Assembly (NCBI RefSeq): GCF_004923295.1
Contig: NZ_CP039634.1
Location: 2,322,001 to 2,386,000 of the forward strand
DNA: 64,000 nucleotides
Direction: 5' to 3'
DNA from: Azospirillum sp. TSH100
Lineage (GTDB): Bacteria > Pseudomonadota > Alphaproteobacteria > Azospirillales > Azospirillaceae
Each line of letters opens with the position of its first letter. Within the stretch, counting starts at the first letter, position 1. Shown here in pieces: positions 9,763-56,124 of this stretch. Both the position numbers and the translations under genes were made by a program. Below the pieces are notes generated by a model, which worked only from the letters and a program-made list of their open reading frames with translations, was not told the DNA's origin and ran no database searches.

Positions 9763-10419
9763 ATGGCAACAGCGCGGCGCCGCGCCGACATTTATGGCAC
9801 GCCCACAAACGACCGCTCCGGCTCGGAAGCGGCAGAAGGCGGCTATGGCGAAAATGGTGATTGCGCGACGCTCGCGCTGCCGCTGACCGTTCGTCAGGCA
9901 CGACAGGAGGATCTGACGACGCTGGAATGGTACGGCCTGCACACCCCTCATCGCGAGATCATTGCCGGCGCCTTCCGCCTCCAGGAACGGGGGGACGGCG
10001 CCATGCTGCTGGCCGACGCGAATGGCTTCCCAGTCGGGCAGATCTGCATCGATTTTCTGCGCAAGCGGCCAAGCGGCCGCGCCACCCTATGGGCCTTGCG
10101 GGTGTTCCAGCCCTTTCGCGGGCTCGGCATCGGCGCCCGGCTGCTCCGGGCAGCCGAGCGGGTGGTGATCCAGCGCGGTGTTCCTTACGCTGAACTGGGC
10201 GTTGACCGCGACAATGCCGGCGTCCTGCCCTTCTATGAACGGCTGGGTTACCAGCATTGCGGACGGGAGCGCGGGCAATTTCTCTACCACACGCCGGAAG
10301 GCCGGCTGGTCCGCGTCGCCATCGACCAGTGGCTTCTGCACAAGCGACTGTCCAAAGACAACGACGCCACCGGCACGGCGTCAAACACCACCAGCCGGAT
10401 GAATCTCGCCACCGACTGA
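9763..10419 (+). CDS. GNAT-family N-acetyltransferase
   Basis: A 218-residue acetyltransferase of the GNAT superfamily. The acetyl-CoA-binding motif A appears as LRVFQPFRGLGIGARLL (near residues 113-129), followed by motif B-like NAGVLPFYERLGYQHCG. The substrate cannot be inferred. The first 40 residues are low-complexity and unlike the family, so the true start may be further in, at about the PLTVRQARQEDL segment (near residue 40). The ATG at 9763 has only a weak GCGAGG upstream. It stands alone between an AT-rich patch and a convergent unknown gene. Confidence 0.8.
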   Translation: MATARRRADIYGTPTNDRSGSEAAEGGYGENGDCATLALPLTVRQARQEDLTTLEWYGLHTPHREIIAGAFRLQERGDGAMLLADANGFPVGQICIDFLRKRPSGRATLWALRVFQPFRGLGIGARLLRAAERVVIQRGVPYAELGVDRDNAGVLPFYERLGYQHCGRERGQFLYHTPEGRLVRVAIDQWLLHKRLSKDNDATGTASNTTSRMNLATD

Positions 10420-10422
10420 TCC

Positions 10423-10926
10423 TTATTCCGCCGCCATTGCCACATCGACCATGGCCACACCGCTTGCGGGAGAAACCAGTCGCGCCGCCCGGCGACGCGG
10501 CAGGAAGATACGGGCACCATCCAGGATCCCGCCCAATTCGCCCATGGCATCGGTCGCCATGCACAGCGCCACCGGCGGAAGCCAGCGGTCGAACAGTTGC
10601 GCTGCCACCTCCGCATCGCCACCCTGCACGGCGGCCAAGGAATCAAGCAAGGCGGCCTCATCGGCACTGATCCGGTTGCAGGCTGGGCATCGGATCTCCG
10701 GCCGGCGGGCTCCGGCCACCGCGAAGGTACCGAGCAGAGCGAACAGCGGCAGCAACGCGGTGTTCGGCACCCCCGCCACATTCAGCCCGATGCGCATCGA
10801 CGCCATCGCCCCGGCAGTGCCGGCGCGAAACCACTGACGCACGCCGGTCAGCAGCGCCCGTTCGGCGGTTGTCAGATCCGCCACCGTCCAGGGCGAGGGC
10901 CGCCCCTCTTCCACCGTCCCGCACAT
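10423..10926 (-). CDS. Hypothetical protein with CPAC motif
   Basis: A 167-residue protein I do not recognise. The start at 10926 is well supported by AAGGAG 7 nt upstream, and codon use is typical of the region, so I consider it a real gene. Features: an acidic N-terminus (TVADLTTAERALLTGVRQWF), a central hydrophobic stretch (TALLPLFALLGTFAVAGA) that could be one membrane helix or a buried helix, and a single CPAC pair at about residue 80. It is convergent with the GNAT gene, with stops only 3 nt apart. Confidence 0.7.
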   Translation of the reverse strand: MCGTVEEGRPSPWTVADLTTAERALLTGVRQWFRAGTAGAMASMRIGLNVAGVPNTALLPLFALLGTFAVAGARRPEIRCPACNRISADEAALLDSLAAVQGGDAEVAAQLFDRWLPPVALCMATDAMGELGGILDGARIFLPRRRAARLVSPASGVAMVDVAMAAE

Positions 10927-11114
10927 GCCGATGCTCCTTCATCCGGTTGCAGAGACATCGTAGCGCCTATCGCTCCTAATTGCGAGTCATTCTTATTTGC
11001 GCCTGCGCTTGTGACAAAAAACGGTCGATCGTGACACTGAAAATCGTGGAAAGGTCGCGTTAACGAACCGCGGCAATCCTGAAGCGACTCGCAGTACAGG
11101 GGGGATCGCTGGGC

Positions 11115-49558: not shown

Positions 49559-50770
49559 TCAGGGTTTGCCCGCTTGGGGGCTGTTCGGGCGACGCTCTGC
49601 CACGACGTCAAGAATGGCACGGGCGGCCCGTTCGCTGGGCGGGGTATCTCCCTGCCCCAGCCAACGGGCAACCTCTGCGACGCCATCGATCTGCACCTGC
49701 CGTGCAGTCGGGTCGTCCAGCAGGCGACCAAGTTCACTGGCCAGCTTATCCGGCCGGCAGTCCTGTTGCAGCAGTTCCGGAACCAGCATCCGATCGAGCA
49801 TCAGGTTTACGAGGTTCACATACTTGACTCGGATCAGCCGCCGATAGAGCGCGACCGTCACCGGGTTCAGCCGATAAGCGATGACCGTCGGCAGACGGGC
49901 AAGCGCCAACTCAAGCGCAACAGTGCCGGAAGCAGCAAGTGCCACCTCCGCCGCTGCAAAAGCATCATATTTTTCAGCATCGCCCTCGACCAGCAGGGTA
50001 CGGATCGGCCAGTCGGCGATGGCGGCGGCGACGCGGTCGCGCACCGTGGCGACTGTCGGCACCACCGCCACCAGATTGGGATGGGAGGGACGCAGCAACT
50101 CCAGGGTCGCGCGGAAATCCGGCAGCAAGCGCGACACTTCACCTCTGCGGCTGCCGGGAAGCACGGCGACGACCCGGTCTGTCGCGGCGATTGCATGGCG
50201 CTGATGGAATGCCAGGCTGTCGCCCTTCCCTGCTCCCCCCTCGACCACCGAATGGCCGACGAAAGTGCAAGCCAGCCCTTCCTTCTCGAAATAGGGAGGC
50301 TCGAAGGGAAGCACGGCCAGCAGATGGTCATAGATGGCGGCATATTTTGCCGCACGCTTCGGCTTCCAAGCCCAGACCGTGGGCGCCACATAGTGGATCA
50401 GCGGTATTGTCGACTCAGCCGCACGCACCTTCTTCGCGACACGCACGGTAAAGCCAGGCGAGTCGATACCAATTACAACGTCCGGCCGCAGGCGCAGGAT
50501 CTCCGCGACCGTCTGGTCGATGCGACGGATCAGGTTCGGCAGATGCGGCAGCAACTCGAAGATGCCGAACAGCGTCAATTCAGCCATCGGAAACAGGCTG
50601 ACAAGCCCTTCCGCCGTCATCCGCTCGCCGCCAATGCCGACGAAGCGGACCTTTCCATCGGTCAATCGCTTCGCCGCCGCCATCAGCCGAGCCCCCAACG
50701 CATCGCCGGACGGCTCCCCAGCGATCAGAAACAGCGTGAGGCTATCGTCAGCACTATCGCGGGCAGTCAT
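49559..50770 (-). CDS. lpxB: Lipid-A-disaccharide synthase
   Basis: Makes the beta-1,6 disaccharide of lipid A from UDP-diacylglucosamine and lipid X. The 403-residue GT19 protein contains [16 protein letters not shown] (nucleotide-binding start), VGIGGERM, and [15 protein letters not shown], plus the FVGHSVVEG stretch. The start at 50770 overlaps lpxI (ATGA). Last gene of the envelope operon. Confidence 0.96.
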
Positions 50771-51624
50771 TGCGGGATCTCGATGCCGACCACGAACAGC
50801 CCGAGCCGGTCAGCCGCTTCTGCAACCGCAGCACGATCGACAAGTAGGCTGCCCCCGGCCTCGACCGCGATACCGCGCAAGCCGGCAGCGGCAGCCCGCT
50901 CCACCGTGGTAACCCCCATGGTAGGCAGATCGATGCGGCGGTCCTGCTTGGGCTTCTTCACCTTGACCAACACACCACCGGCTCCGGGACGGGCCAATGC
51001 AGCGCAGCGTCCAAGCATGGCGTCGGTCCCCTCGATTGCCTCCACCGCCAGAACGATGCCCTGCTGGACCACAGCACCCTGCCCGACATCGAGCGCCCCC
51101 AGGGCACGGGCAACCTCGATGGCACGGGCGATGTCCCGCGCCGCCTCTGAATCGGGAAGCAGCCGCCCCACCGGACCGGCGACGGTCAGGAGATCCTTGA
51201 GCAACTCGTGCAAGCCAACCACGCGAAACCCATCCTCCTCCACCTCCCTCACGACGGCGCGCAACAGCCCGTCATCGCCTAAGGCGCGGGTACCGACGCG
51301 GGCAAGAAAGCGGGCGGTGCGCCAATCCGGCATCAACTCGGTAAAGGAAGGGCGCTTCACCGGCCCGGCAAGCACGACGTCCCCGACCCGTTCCTCGTGA
51401 AGGCGGCGCAGGATGGTACCGGCGGCACCGAAGCGGCTCCAGAGATGAGGAAGCCCGGCGACCGTTTGCGGATCGGTGTGACCGTCGAAGGCGACGATGA
51501 AAACCTCACGGCCCTGACCGCGCACCGCTTCCGCGATGCGGGCGGGAAGCGTTCCGCCGCCGGCCAGGATAGCCAGCTTCGGTCCAGCCGCCGGCGATCC
51601 CGCCTCCTGTCCGGTATCGGCCAT
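50767..51624 (-). CDS. lpxI: UDP-2,3-diacylglucosamine diphosphatase LpxI
   Basis: The alphaproteobacterial alternative to LpxH, making lipid X from UDP-diacylglucosamine. The 285-residue protein (DUF1009 family) starts with a GGGTLPARIAEAVR motif and contains VEAIEGTDAMLGRC and the C-terminal DLPTMGVTTVERAAAAGL with the catalytic aspartate region. It lies between lpxA and lpxB, its usual place. Confidence 0.95.
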   Translation of the reverse strand: MADTGQEAGSPAAGPKLAILAGGGTLPARIAEAVRGQGREVFIVAFDGHTDPQTVAGLPHLWSRFGAAGTILRRLHEERVGDVVLAGPVKRPSFTELMPDWRTARFLARVGTRALGDDGLLRAVVREVEEDGFRVVGLHELLKDLLTVAGPVGRLLPDSEAARDIARAIEVARALGALDVGQGAVVQQGIVLAVEAIEGTDAMLGRCAALARPGAGGVLVKVKKPKQDRRIDLPTMGVTTVERAAAAGLRGIAVEAGGSLLVDRAAVAEAADRLGLFVVGIEIPQ

Positions 51625-51636
51625 CGGCCGGTCGCC

Positions 51637-52431
51637 TCAGCTCTCGCGCGGCTGACAGAGAGACCGGGCTTCCTTGGCCCGGATGAAGGACAGCACGTCG
51701 GAAATCAGCGCACGCTCACCGAAATCGCGGCCGACCTCGTCCACCCGCTCGGCGAAGGTGCCCTCCGGACCGAACAGCATCCGATAGGCGGCGCGCAGGG
51801 CGTGGATGTCGTCCTTCTTGAAGCCGCGCCGCTCCAGCCCGACCAGATTCAAGCCAGCAAGACGAGCCCGGTCGCCCATCACCAGACCGAAGGGAATCAC
51901 GTCATTCTCGACGCCGGACATGCCGCCGATCATCGCGTGGGAACCGATACGAACGAACTGGCGCACTGCCGACAGGCCGCCAATGATGACATAGTCGCCC
52001 AGCGTCACATGGCCACCGAGGGTGGCGTTGTTCGCCATGATGACATGGTCGCCGACGATGCAGTCGTGCGCCACATGCGAGCCCATCATGAACAGCCCGT
52101 CATCGCCGACGCGGGTGATCATCCCACCACCCTCGGTGCCGGGATTCATGGTGACATGCTCGCGGATCTGGTTGCGGGCACCGATGACAAGCTCCGACGG
52201 CTCGCCATGGAACTTCAGATCCTGCGGGCGATGGCCGATCGACGCAAACGGGTAGATGACGGTATCGGCACCGATGCTGGTGCGCCCGTCCACCGCCACG
52301 TGCGAAACCAGCCGAACGCCATCGCCCAGCGTGACGTCGGGACCGACGACGCAGAAGGGGCCGATGTTGACCCCTTCCCCCAGCTTGGCCGCGGGATCGA
52401 CGATGGCGGACGGATGGATGGTGACGGTCAT
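51637..52431 (-). CDS. lpxA: UDP-N-acetylglucosamine acyltransferase
   Basis: First enzyme of lipid A synthesis, attaching a 3-hydroxyacyl group to UDP-GlcNAc. The 264-residue protein is a left-handed parallel beta-helix of hexapeptide repeats with the catalytic-region signature [17 protein letters not shown] and [13 protein letters not shown]. Start overlaps fabZ stop (ATGA). Confidence 0.97.
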
Positions 52432-52910
52432 TTTTCGTCCAGGATCATGGCGGAATAGACGGCTTCAGCGACGAGGACGCCGTTGACCTTGGCCTCGCCC
52501 TTGAACTTCCACACGTTGGCGCGCTGGCGCTGCTTGGTCACGTGGATGTGGATGGTGTCGCCGGGAGTTACCGGGCGGCGGAACCGCGCCTCGTCGACGG
52601 TCATGAAATAGACCAGCTTGCCTTCCGCATCGGGGCCCAGAGTCGCCACCACCAGCACGGCGGAGGTCTGCGCCATCGCCTCGATGATCAGCACGCCGGG
52701 CATCACAGGACGCGACGGGAAATGCCCCTGGAAGAAGGGCTCGTTGATCGTGACGTTCTTCACGCCGGTGGCACCTTCACCCAGCGTCACATCGATCACC
52801 CGGTCGATCATCAGGATCGGGTAGCGATGTGGGATCATCTGCATGATCCGCGTGATGTCGATGTCGTCGATCTTGTTGCTTTGCGCGTTGTTGTCCGCCG
52901 TCACGTCCAT
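52428..52910 (-). CDS. fabZ: 3-hydroxyacyl-ACP dehydratase FabZ
   Basis: Dehydrates 3-hydroxyacyl-ACP in fatty-acid synthesis and supplies the hydroxyacyl pool balance for lipid A. The 160-residue hot-dog protein has the catalytic histidine in [14 protein letters not shown] and glutamate in [13 protein letters not shown]. It follows a hairpin after skp, and lpxD, often just upstream, is absent here. Its ATG at 52910 has no strong Shine-Dalgarno, but the family start fits. Confidence 0.96.
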
Positions 52911-53084
52911 TGCCCGGCCGCCCGCCTTTCCACCAACCGATAGGGTTCAGCATTCCCCTTTCCGGGGAACGGACACCGCTGCCCCGATGGGGAGCACCGG
53001 CGCCTTCTTGTTTGCTCCGCTTTCTTGCCCCATTTCCGCGACGACCGCAACGCCGAACCCGGAAAGGGAAAAAGCCGGAAACGG

Positions 53085-53125
53085 AACGGGGCCGCCGCCC
53101 CCCTTTGGAGAGCGGCGGCCCCGGT
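53085..53125 (-). terminator. Hairpin between skp and fabZ
   Basis: An 11-bp GC stem (53088-53098 with 53112-53122) with a 13-nt loop, just after skp. The T-tract on the minus strand is weak. It could be a partial terminator or an RNA-processing element separating the bamA-skp part from fabZ-lpx. Confidence 0.6.
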
Positions 53126-53135
53126 CAGTTCAGCA

Positions 53136-53783
53136 TCACTGCTTCGGAACGTTCAGGGCAACCTGCGGCAGTTTCTTGTTCACACGCTCCATCACCAGAT
53201 CGGTGACGTCAAGCTGGGTGTCGACAAGAACGAACTGCTGACGGGCGAGAACGAGGTTGGCGCCCCGCTCGCGGGAAACGTCAGCCACCACCTCGACCAT
53301 CGTCTTGTGAACGACGGCCATCGCTTCGTTCAGGCTCGTCTCCAGGGCGCGCTTGCGGGCCTGCACGGTCTTCTGGACGTCGGCGACCTGCTTCTCAAAG
53401 TCGCGGCGCTTGTTGGCGAGGGCTTCCGGCGACAGAACGGTCTGCTGCTTGCGCAGCTCATCCTCGTTCTTGCGGAGCTTGTCCTCAAGCGCAGAGATTT
53501 CCTTCTGGTAGGAATCGCGCAGCGATTCGAAGGACTTGGTGATGCCCTTCGACGCGTTGGAATCCTGCATGATCTTCTGGACGTCGATCACGGCAATGAT
53601 CGGCGCCTTCAGCTCCGCACCCGGTGCCGGAGCATCGGCTTTGGGGGCTTCAGCCGCCTTGGGAGCCTCGGCCTTGGGCGCCGACTGCGCCTGAGCAGCG
53701 CCTGCGGCGAAAACGAGACCGGCAGCCGTTACGGCCGACAGGACGGCGACGCGAAACGGCGTCTTCGACTTGGTGAATTGCAT
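53136..53783 (-). CDS. skp: Skp/OmpH-family periplasmic chaperone
   Basis: Periplasmic chaperone that holds unfolded outer-membrane proteins. The 215-residue protein has a Sec signal (VAVLSAVTAAGLVFAAGAAQA), a low-complexity Ala/Pro/Lys spacer (33-58), then the Skp core: KAPIIAVIDVQKIMQDSNASKG and a coiled-coil arm (KSFESLRDSYQKEISALEDK and onward). The spacer after the signal is an unusual extension. The gene starts 1 nt after the bamA stop, so it is coupled to it. Confidence 0.93.
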   Translation of the reverse strand: MQFTKSKTPFRVAVLSAVTAAGLVFAAGAAQAQSAPKAEAPKAAEAPKADAPAPGAELKAPIIAVIDVQKIMQDSNASKGITKSFESLRDSYQKEISALEDKLRKNEDELRKQQTVLSPEALANKRRDFEKQVADVQKTVQARKRALETSLNEAMAVVHKTMVEVVADVSRERGANLVLARQQFVLVDTQLDVTDLVMERVNKKLPQVALNVPKQ

Positions 53784-53784
53784 C

Positions 53785-56124
53785 TTAGAACCTGGTTCCG
53801 AAGCTGAAGCGGACGAGCTCTTTCTTGTCGTAGCCTTCCTTGCGGATCGGCAGCGCGACGTCGAGCCGGATTGGACCGAACGGCGACTTCCACGACACAC
53901 CAGTGCCGATGGAAACGCGGATGCTCTCGTCATCCTTCACGTTCGGATCTTTGATGTCGACCTTGCCAAGCGTGCCGATATCGGTGAAGGCATGGCCGAG
54001 CAGACCGAACTCCTCCGGCAGGCCGAAGGGGAAGCTCATTTCCACCGAGGCGCGGGCGTAGCGCGTGCCGCCCAGCGCATCGCCGGTCGAGACGTCTCGC
54101 GGGCCGATACCGGCAGTGTTGAAGCCGCGCAGGGTGTCGCCGCCGATGAAGAAGCGGTCACCCAGATCCACCTTCTTGCCGAGACCGTGGATATATCCGA
54201 TCTCGCCGGTCGTGCTGAGGACCCACTGGTCCTCACCGAGCGGCAGATAGTACCCACCGGCCAGCTTGTTCCGCAGGAAGCGGACCGAGCCGCCGAGACC
54301 GGCGATGTCGTTGGTCAGCCGGATGAAGTAGCCTTCTGTCGGCGTCAGCTTGCTGTTGCGGACGTCGTAGGTAAGCTCCTGACCGATCAGCGAGGTCAGA
54401 CGTTCACCCCGCTGTTCTTGGATGTACTTAGACGCAGTCGACGGCACTTCCTCGATCAGCGTGTCCTGGAGCTGGTAGTAGACACGCTGGCGCAGACGTT
54501 CGGTCAGCGGATAGCCGAGACGCAGAGCGAAGCCGGTGTTCTTCTCGTTGAACGAGCTTTCGTCCTGATAGTTGTAACGAGTCCTGAAGATGTCGACACC
54601 TGCCGACAGGTCGCGGTCCATGAAGTACGGCTCCGTGAAGGAGATATCGTACAGCTGGCGCCGGCCAGAGAGCGTCGCGCCCAGGCGCAGATCCTGACCA
54701 CGGCCAAGGAGGTTGCGCTCACGGATCGAGAAGTCGCCCAGCGGACCGTCGGAAGTCGAGAAACCGGCACCGATGGAGATTTCGCCGGTGGACTGCTCGG
54801 CCACGTCGACATTGACCACGGTGCGGTCGGGCGCGCTGCTCTCGGCGGTCGTGATGTTCACGCGCTCGAAGAAGCCCAGATCCTTGATGCGCTGTTCGGA
54901 GCGCTTCAACTTCGAGGCGCTGAAGGGGTCGCCTTCCGACAGCAGCATCTCGCGACGGATAACCTTGTCGAGCGTACGGACGTTGCCCGAGATGTCGATT
55001 CGGTCGACGAAAGTGCGCGGCCCCTCGTTGATCTCATAGGTGATGTCGATCGTGTGGGTTTCGCGGTTGCGCGAAATCCGCGGCCGGACATCGACGAAGG
55101 CATACTGGAGATCGCCGACGGCGTTCGTCAGCTTGGTGATGGTGTCTTCCACCTTCTGGGCGTTGTACCAATCGCCTTCGGTGGTGGTCACGCTGTTCTG
55201 CAGAACGGCCGGATCGAGCTGCTTCAGCGAGGTGTTGATGTCGACCTTGCCGAACTTGTAGCGCTCGCCTTCCTCAATGGTGAAGGTGATGAAGAAATCG
55301 GACTTGTCCGGCGTCAACTCGGCGACGGCAGACACCACGCGGAAATCCGCATAGCCTTCCTTCAGATAGAAGCGGCGCAGCAGATCACGGTCGTAGGCCA
55401 GGCGGTCCGGATCGTAGTTGTCATCCGACGTCAGGAAACGCCACCAGGCCGATTCCTTCGTCTGGACGTTCTCACGCAGGGTGCCGTCCGAGAAATGCTC
55501 GTTGCCAATGAAGGTGATGCCGCGAACGCCGGTGCGGACCCCCTCATTGATCTCGAACACCAGATCGACGCGATTCTGGTCGAGCTGAATGATCTTCGGC
55601 TCGACCGTCGCGCCGAAACGGCCCTGGCGACGGTAGATTTCCTGGATGCGCTGGACGTCCGACTGCACCCGGGTGCGCGTGTAGACGACGCGGGGACGCA
55701 GTTGAATTTCCTTGTCCAGCGTCTCCTTGTCGATGCGCCGGTTCCCCTCGAACGCAATGCGGTTGATGATCGGGTTCTCGGCGACCGTCACCACCAGCAC
55801 GTCGCCATCGCGCTTCAGCACGACGTCGGCGAACAAGCCGGTGTTGAACAGCGACTTCAGCGACTGGTCGATCCGGTCAGGATCGAACGGATCGCCCGGT
55901 TGGATCGACAGGTAGGAGCGGACCGTGGAGGCTTCGATTCGCTGGATGCCTTCGACCCGGATGTCGCGCACCGTACCGCCACTGAACACCTGGGCGACCA
56001 TTGACCCCGTGGCACCCGTCGCCCGTCCGGGCGAGGTTGCGGTTTGGGCGTGGGCGACAGACACCGTCGTCATGGCGCAGCCGGCCAGCAGGCCCGCCAC
56101 CAGAACTTTGCTCGACACCGGCAA
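53785..56124 (-). CDS. bamA: Outer-membrane protein assembly factor BamA
   Basis: The Omp85 barrel that inserts outer-membrane proteins. The 779-residue protein has a signal peptide (VLVAGLLAGCAMTTVSVAHA), five POTRA repeats (about 45-420; for example IRVEGIQRIEASTVRSYL), and a C-terminal 16-strand barrel with the GGDTLRGFNTAGIGP loop (RGF motif of L6) and closing aromatic residue (SFGTRF). Located between rseP and skp as in most proteobacteria. Confidence 0.97.
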   Translation of the reverse strand: MPVSSKVLVAGLLAGCAMTTVSVAHAQTATSPGRATGATGSMVAQVFSGGTVRDIRVEGIQRIEASTVRSYLSIQPGDPFDPDRIDQSLKSLFNTGLFADVVLKRDGDVLVVTVAENPIINRIAFEGNRRIDKETLDKEIQLRPRVVYTRTRVQSDVQRIQEIYRRQGRFGATVEPKIIQLDQNRVDLVFEINEGVRTGVRGITFIGNEHFSDGTLRENVQTKESAWWRFLTSDDNYDPDRLAYDRDLLRRFYLKEGYADFRVVSAVAELTPDKSDFFITFTIEEGERYKFGKVDINTSLKQLDPAVLQNSVTTTEGDWYNAQKVEDTITKLTNAVGDLQYAFVDVRPRISRNRETHTIDITYEINEGPRTFVDRIDISGNVRTLDKVIRREMLLSEGDPFSASKLKRSEQRIKDLGFFERVNITTAESSAPDRTVVNVDVAEQSTGEISIGAGFSTSDGPLGDFSIRERNLLGRGQDLRLGATLSGRRQLYDISFTEPYFMDRDLSAGVDIFRTRYNYQDESSFNEKNTGFALRLGYPLTERLRQRVYYQLQDTLIEEVPSTASKYIQEQRGERLTSLIGQELTYDVRNSKLTPTEGYFIRLTNDIAGLGGSVRFLRNKLAGGYYLPLGEDQWVLSTTGEIGYIHGLGKKVDLGDRFFIGGDTLRGFNTAGIGPRDVSTGDALGGTRYARASVEMSFPFGLPEEFGLLGHAFTDIGTLGKVDIKDPNVKDDESIRVSIGTGVSWKSPFGPIRLDVALPIRKEGYDKKELVRFSFGTRF

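Follow-up and report, generated by a model that had tools for sequence, protein, structure and literature searches.

Azospirillum sp. TSH100 has no lpxD between skp and fabZ, and the native in-cluster gene has very probably been replaced by one second-lineage LpxD encoded at a distant site, the partner genes that accompany this lineage as a cassette in relatives probably being lost afterwards. In lipid A, the amide-linked chains are set by LpxD. Here a single-gene step has apparently been swapped for a transferase nearer to that of another phylum, with the rest of the operon left in place. The window analyzed here is a 64,000-nucleotide stretch of the genome (contig C1, positions 2322001-2386000), in which the genes are transcribed in the order cdsA, dxr, rseP, bamA, skp, fabZ, lpxA, lpxI, lpxB (the first three named by eye from translations). 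Its relevant features, in window coordinates, are as follows.

49559-50770, minus strand: lpxB (TIGR00215, 286.3 bits; cut-off 190.25)
50767-51624, minus strand: lpxI (NF047836, 258.3 bits; below the cut-off of 400, match nearly full length)
51637-52431, minus strand: lpxA (TIGR01852, 343.6 bits; cut-off 231.05)
52428-52910, minus strand: fabZ (TIGR01750, 190.8 bits; cut-off 155.15)
52911-53135, minus strand: skp-fabZ gap without lpxD, the position of lpxD in sister genera of the usual type
53087-53123, minus strand: GC hairpin, 12 nt after skp, terminator- or attenuator-like with a weak T-rich tail
53136-53783, minus strand: skp, OmpH family (PF03938, 76.5 bits; cut-off 32.4; start picked by eye, score from the longer frame 53136-53933)
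53785-56124, minus strand: bamA (TIGR03303, 824.3 bits; cut-off 297.15)

The interval between skp (stop codon at 53136-53138, minus strand) and fabZ (start at 52910, minus strand) is exactly 225 bp. The hairpin within it has 12 perfect pairs, or 17 if G-U pairs are counted, and the 78-nt RNA around it folds at -47.6 kcal/mol (z = -5.75), a stability equalled by 0 of 200 shuffles; it is best read as a putative terminator or attenuator behind skp, and GC hairpins are found behind skp in many, not all, Azospirillum gaps. No lpxD remnant is detected in the gap with 31 usual-type LpxD proteins as tblastn queries against 39 short-gap rows (34 genomes, the window among them), for which the best match has E = 0.022 and spans 23 residues only, and a pseudogene remnant is thus rejected; as a positive control, usual-type LpxD queries match 67 of 67 long-gap rows. 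The spacing of skp and fabZ is 28 to 235 nt in all 33 measured Azospirillaceae genomes with the second type of LpxD (26 from the genus of the window genome and 7 from sister genera), and because the short gap recurs in every one of these, assembly error is an unlikely cause of the missing lpxD. Coordinates, fold and tblastn all agree with the preliminary description of a 225-bp gap that holds a hairpin and lacks lpxD. It had also reported lpxA, lpxI and lpxB as present; LpxA and LpxB score above their NCBIfam cut-offs, and LpxI, at 258 bits, falls far under its cut-off of 400 though nearly the whole model is covered.

The expectation that LpxD is either encoded elsewhere or replaced turns out to be right on both counts, as there is a single full-length, distant LpxD and it belongs to another lineage. 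Across the whole genome (7.17 Mb, 8 contigs) the sole LpxD above the TIGR01853 cut-off lies at C1:436896-437900 (minus strand), ∼1.9 Mb from the window, and the next-best match is partial (45.9 bits). Against TIGR01853, the lpxD equivalog model (cut-off 242.5 bits), it scores 279.3 bits in the genome search and 286.1 bits on the protein; it also exceeds the NF002060 cut-off, matches LpxD over its full length, and has the hexapeptide repeats and catalytic His-Asn pair. In the extracted locus, L039, lpxD occupies positions 9798-10955 (minus strand). Upstream, in the same orientation, are genes for a cupin and an OmpA-family protein, and ∼50 nt past lpxD a SpoU-family methylase gene begins. The neighbors of lpxD differ among three Azospirillum loci (L039, L117, and L118), and the lpxD site is therefore not conserved even within the genus. 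LpxC and LpxK of this genome are each over their own cut-offs. The earlier alternative of a changed lipid A pathway finds no support among the five proteins checked, with LpxA, LpxI, LpxB, LpxC, and LpxK all present.

A survey of 82 Azospirillaceae genomes finds LpxD in 81 and fabZ in 80; G096 has neither gene, and G025, which has the second type, has no fabZ match. Each of the 81 has one LpxD gene at E ≤ 1e-30, and no Azospirillaceae genome has both types together. The second type is present in 54 genomes and the usual type in 27, with TIGR01853 scores of 262 to 291 bits and 329 to 347 bits, respectively (17 second-type matches came in two pieces, and their scores were summed). Judged by eye from coordinates, lpxD adjoins fabZ in 27 of 27 usual-type genomes and in 0 of the 53 second-type genomes having both genes, where it lies on another contig or far off. 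The second-type genomes comprise 45 of the window's genus, five of g27, two of g28, and one each of g31 and g32. The possibility that the lineage never has lpxD in its cluster accordingly applies to the genus (0 of 44 testable genomes among the 45) and fails for the family, 27 genomes of which have it there. Gene order is otherwise the same in the 24 family genomes examined, cdsA-dxr-rseP-bamA-skp-[lpxD]-fabZ-lpxA-lpxI-lpxB with or without lpxD, the exceptions being G081 (usual type), where lpxA was unmatched in a simple search, and several regions that end before cdsA or dxr. A tree of six cluster proteins places g1, g27, g31, and g32 in one group (SH-aLRT 89) and g28 apart, weakly, and there were therefore one or two losses of lpxD.

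The two types are only distantly related. By blastp, LpxD of the window genome shares 51% identity with that of Vampirovibrio chlorellavorus and 34 to 37% with eight in-cluster usual-type LpxD proteins of its own family; identities to the sister genera are 58 to 62% (g27, g31, and g32) and 52 to 58% (g28). Used as a phmmer query against an initial set of extracted loci, it scores 270 to 825 bits with the second type and at most 159 bits with the usual type, although such a query is biased toward its own kind. In a 74-row LpxD tree the types split at SH-aLRT 100. In a 60-row tree that includes 11 nonalphaproteobacterial Pseudomonadota, the usual alphaproteobacterial type joins these (SH-aLRT 99), and the second type forms a separate group (SH-aLRT 99) with Vampirovibrio, Gastranaerophilales, Verrucomicrobiota metagenome-assembled genomes (MAGs), Rhodobacterales, and others. 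The approximately unbiased (AU) test rejects a single clade of the family's 16 second-type and eight usual-type proteins (P = 2e-67, delta lnL 320), and the 16 second-type rows as a single clade are not rejected (P = 0.477). These trees are quick searches with SH-aLRT support only and midpoint or outgroup roots, and branching is weak inside the second lineage and for g28, so the trees are compatible with one or two losses and do not single out a donor.

Plain relocation, in which the native lpxD was moved out by a rearrangement and then diverged, would account for a gene elsewhere in the genome and an otherwise unchanged cluster, but it is extremely unlikely given the AU result, the closer identity to Vampirovibrio than to the family's own in-cluster proteins, a shared insertion, and an lpxD-acp-kas cassette that is common to the sister genera and Rhodobacterales (both described below).

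The insertion lies in the loop between the DGF and IGxVxIGD motifs. This loop is 13 residues long in every one of the 32 usual-type rows and 29 to 33 long in all 53 second-type rows, an extension of 16 to 20 residues. The catalytic His (H239 of Escherichia coli) is kept in all 85 aligned rows of both types. All 16 second-type rows of Azospirillaceae have nonaromatic residues at both sites that correspond to F41 and Y47, the aromatic uracil clamp of the E. coli enzyme; the Y47 site is Tyr or Phe in 11 of 11 Rhodobacterales-type rows, that of F41 is Phe or Tyr in a few second-type rows, and a few usual-type rows are without one or both aromatics. The position of E. coli H276 is Asn in seven of 11 Rhodobacterales-type rows and two of 16 family second-type rows. 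The N-terminal uridine-binding domain (PF04613) of the window genome LpxD scores 20.5 bits (E = 0.00045), below the gathering cut-off of 30.8, and because this score and the clamp positions are atypical, the substrate could differ.

Known LpxD structures in the TIGR01853 family (E. coli 3eh0, Pseudomonas aeruginosa 3pmo, and Chlamydia 2iu8) share the catalytic His-Asn and hexapeptide repeats with the window genome protein, which differs in its replaced clamp aromatics and its gene neighbors, and the second-type insertion is missing from the four PDB alignments viewed (2iu8, 6uec, 6ued, and 3pmo). The predicted model of the Azospirillum LpxD at L118 shows a coil of repeats and, at the C terminus, a long helix, with a pLDDT of 57 to 59 in the insertion. 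The best 24 matches in a fold search with this model are all LpxD, at query-normalized TM-scores of 0.24 to 0.29 and root mean square deviations of 16 to 19 Å, and at such values the search bears out the LpxD family and is uninformative on the insertion.

The weak PF04613 score, the lost clamp aromatics, and an association with acyl carrier protein (ACP) and ketosynthase (KAS) genes in relatives would also fit a distant gene that codes for an acyltransferase of some other lipid, in a lineage with altered lipid A. This is very unlikely, however, as the protein exceeds both the TIGR01853 equivalog and NF002060 cut-offs, its catalytic His is invariant, it is the sole LpxD of a genome having LpxA, LpxC, LpxB, LpxI, and LpxK, and the same lineage lies in an lpxD-lpxC-fabZ-lpxA cluster in Vampirovibrio. 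We infer that the distant LpxD functions as a lipid A enzyme.

Second-type lpxD genes are commonly followed on the same strand by a small ACP gene (PF00550) and then a FabF-like KAS gene (PF00109 and PF02801; above the cut-off of NF005589 and below that of TIGR03150). With at least 600 nt required downstream, which leaves one further named locus too short, and with six duplicate second-type loci (L118 included) dropped, KAS and ACP are present at 64 and 58, respectively, of the 68 loci from named Pseudomonadota (chiefly Rhodobacterales), and at nine and seven of 13 loci in other genomes of the class. Among sister-genus loci each is present at five of seven, and among Azospirillum loci at two of 15. 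Neither is found at seven Melainabacteria-type and gut loci or three Verrucomicrobiota loci, and no KAS lies behind usual-type lpxD at 83 loci (duplicates kept), many with only ∼1.5 kb of flank. In Azospirillum sp. SYSU D00513, the end of lpxD and the beginning of the ACP gene overlap. With three duplicate loci dropped, the KAS Cys-His-His motifs are largely intact in the 77 full-length rows (Cys in 77, first His in 76, and second His in 68), and the ACP xSL motif is present in 59 of 75 rows. In an all-against-all ORF comparison of the neighbors, which was full of antisense frames, the lpxD-acp-kas match alone was taken further.

The window genome LpxD shares its lineage and insertion with the Rhodobacterales proteins, but its gene at L039 has neither acp nor kas behind it in the same orientation, and the genome has no close cassette KAS; the best match (41% identity, C1:2438028) is taken to be the housekeeping FabF. 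The best KAS matches in the cassette-keeping Azospirillum genomes are 100% (G027) and 73% (G028). In the Rhizobiales, a passage of PMC11901934 describes the cluster acpXL-fabZXL-fabF2XL-fabF1XL-adh-lpxXL as serving the late very-long-chain acyltransferase LpxXL. This cluster, as described there, likewise links an ACP and ketosynthases to a lipid A acyltransferase, although the linked transferase is LpxXL, whereas in the second-type cassette it is LpxD itself.

The second type extends well beyond the family. Of 190 class genomes, 15 (representing 11 families) reach at least 408 bits with a profile of nine second-type proteins, and the 63 others matched at E ≤ 1e-60 stay at or below 249 bits, a gap that is partly by construction, the profile being made from second-type rows. 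The TIGR01853 score alone was rejected as a type marker, for it separates the types within the family and fails across the class. In none of the 13 second-type class genomes with fabZ places listed does lpxD directly precede fabZ. The named relatives come from 566 matches to the second-type profile, of which they are the best 80; as an uneven sample they document the occurrence of the type and not its frequency. Second-lineage loci of Vampirovibrio and Gastranaerophilales are arranged lpxD-lpxC-fabZ-lpxA (lpxC tested in L126, L128, and L173), the Cyanobacteriota sampled being of the Melainabacteria type. They are similar to the cyanobacterial order lpxD-lpxC-fabZ-lpxA-lpxB given in a section of PMC3087551, and compared with the cluster in that section the Azospirillum lpxD stands away from the other lipid A genes.

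Such a distribution is also compatible with ancient paralogy, in which an early alphaproteobacterial ancestor had both LpxD types and its descendants kept one or the other. The second type is present in 11 families among the 190 class genomes sampled, G167 carries both types (C235:36464 and C120:5541), G145 has two LpxD matches, and the tree alone would fit an old duplication in alphaproteobacteria with many differential losses. We consider this unlikely, as at E ≤ 1e-30 none of the 81 family genomes shows both types, the trees nest Vampirovibrio and the Verrucomicrobiota MAGs among alphaproteobacteria within the second clade, with modest support, and many parallel losses would be required.

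Replacement by a second-lineage LpxD would involve loss of lpxD between skp and fabZ in one or more ancestors of Azospirillum and the genera closest to it, and probable acquisition of the second-lineage gene by horizontal transfer; Rhodobacterales, other alphaproteobacteria, Melainabacteria-type Cyanobacteriota, and Verrucomicrobiota MAGs also have this lineage. The gene likely arrived as an lpxD-acp-kas cassette that was cut to lpxD alone in most Azospirillum examined. In relatives, the cassette ACP and ketosynthase may build the chain that LpxD attaches, comparable to the acpXL genes and LpxXL as presented in part of PMC11901934, and a general ACP would suffice for LpxD in most Azospirillum. 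The distant LpxD would then N-acylate UDP-3-O-acyl-GlcN for lipid A synthesis, a role assigned to it because it is the only LpxD found, and would feed this step into a pathway whose other genes are mostly in the usual cluster; since lpxD is at a distant locus, it would be expressed from another transcription unit.

More broadly, and tentatively, a type II LpxD (with its extra loop and altered uracil pocket) together with a private ACP and ketosynthase may constitute a widespread alphaproteobacterial N-acylation module that dictates the amide-linked chain and possibly explains the rare 3-oxo chain of Rhodobacter, with Azospirillum having kept the transferase and mostly shed its chain-making partners. 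If so, an unreduced ketosynthase product on the private ACP could be handed to LpxD and account for the 3-oxo chain. The Rhodobacterales acp and kas genes are testable candidates for making unusual N-linked chains such as 3-oxo acyl; an origin of 3-oxo-14:0 via the cassette in Rhodobacter is speculation. Text in PMC5923411 reports that 3-oxo fatty acids have been shown in lipid A of Rhodobacter sphaeroides and Rhodobacter capsulatus and gives Ectothiorhodospiraceae an amide-linked 3-oxo-14:0, and an account in PMC7956469 places 3-OH-14:0 at both amide positions of R. sphaeroides lipid A. In the open-access literature we found no gene for the Rhodobacter 3-oxo acyl chain and nothing on two LpxD lineages, an lpxD-acp-kas cassette, Rhodobacter lpxD order, or Azospirillum lpxD.

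Several other arrangements were observed among the genomes searched. Three well-completed alphaproteobacterial genomes (G048, G118, and G120) have fabZ and no LpxD match at E ≤ 1e-40, and are perhaps lineages without lipid A. Across the class, usual-type lpxD does not always adjoin fabZ, which counts against the replacement reading; in the draft genomes G054, G224, and G250, for example, it lies on a different contig. Two LpxD genes of the usual kind are present in G040, at C2:77853 and C7:91312 (L115 and L116), of which only one is in the cluster, and G220 of the same family has two LpxD matches as well. G043 (family f8) has a second-type lpxD right behind lpxB in the cluster (L105, 4722-9172) and a skp-fabZ spacing of 98 nt, possibly a halfway arrangement. 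Verrucomicrobiota MAGs have tandem pairs of second-type lpxD (L150, 4752-7083, and L156, 5986-8362).
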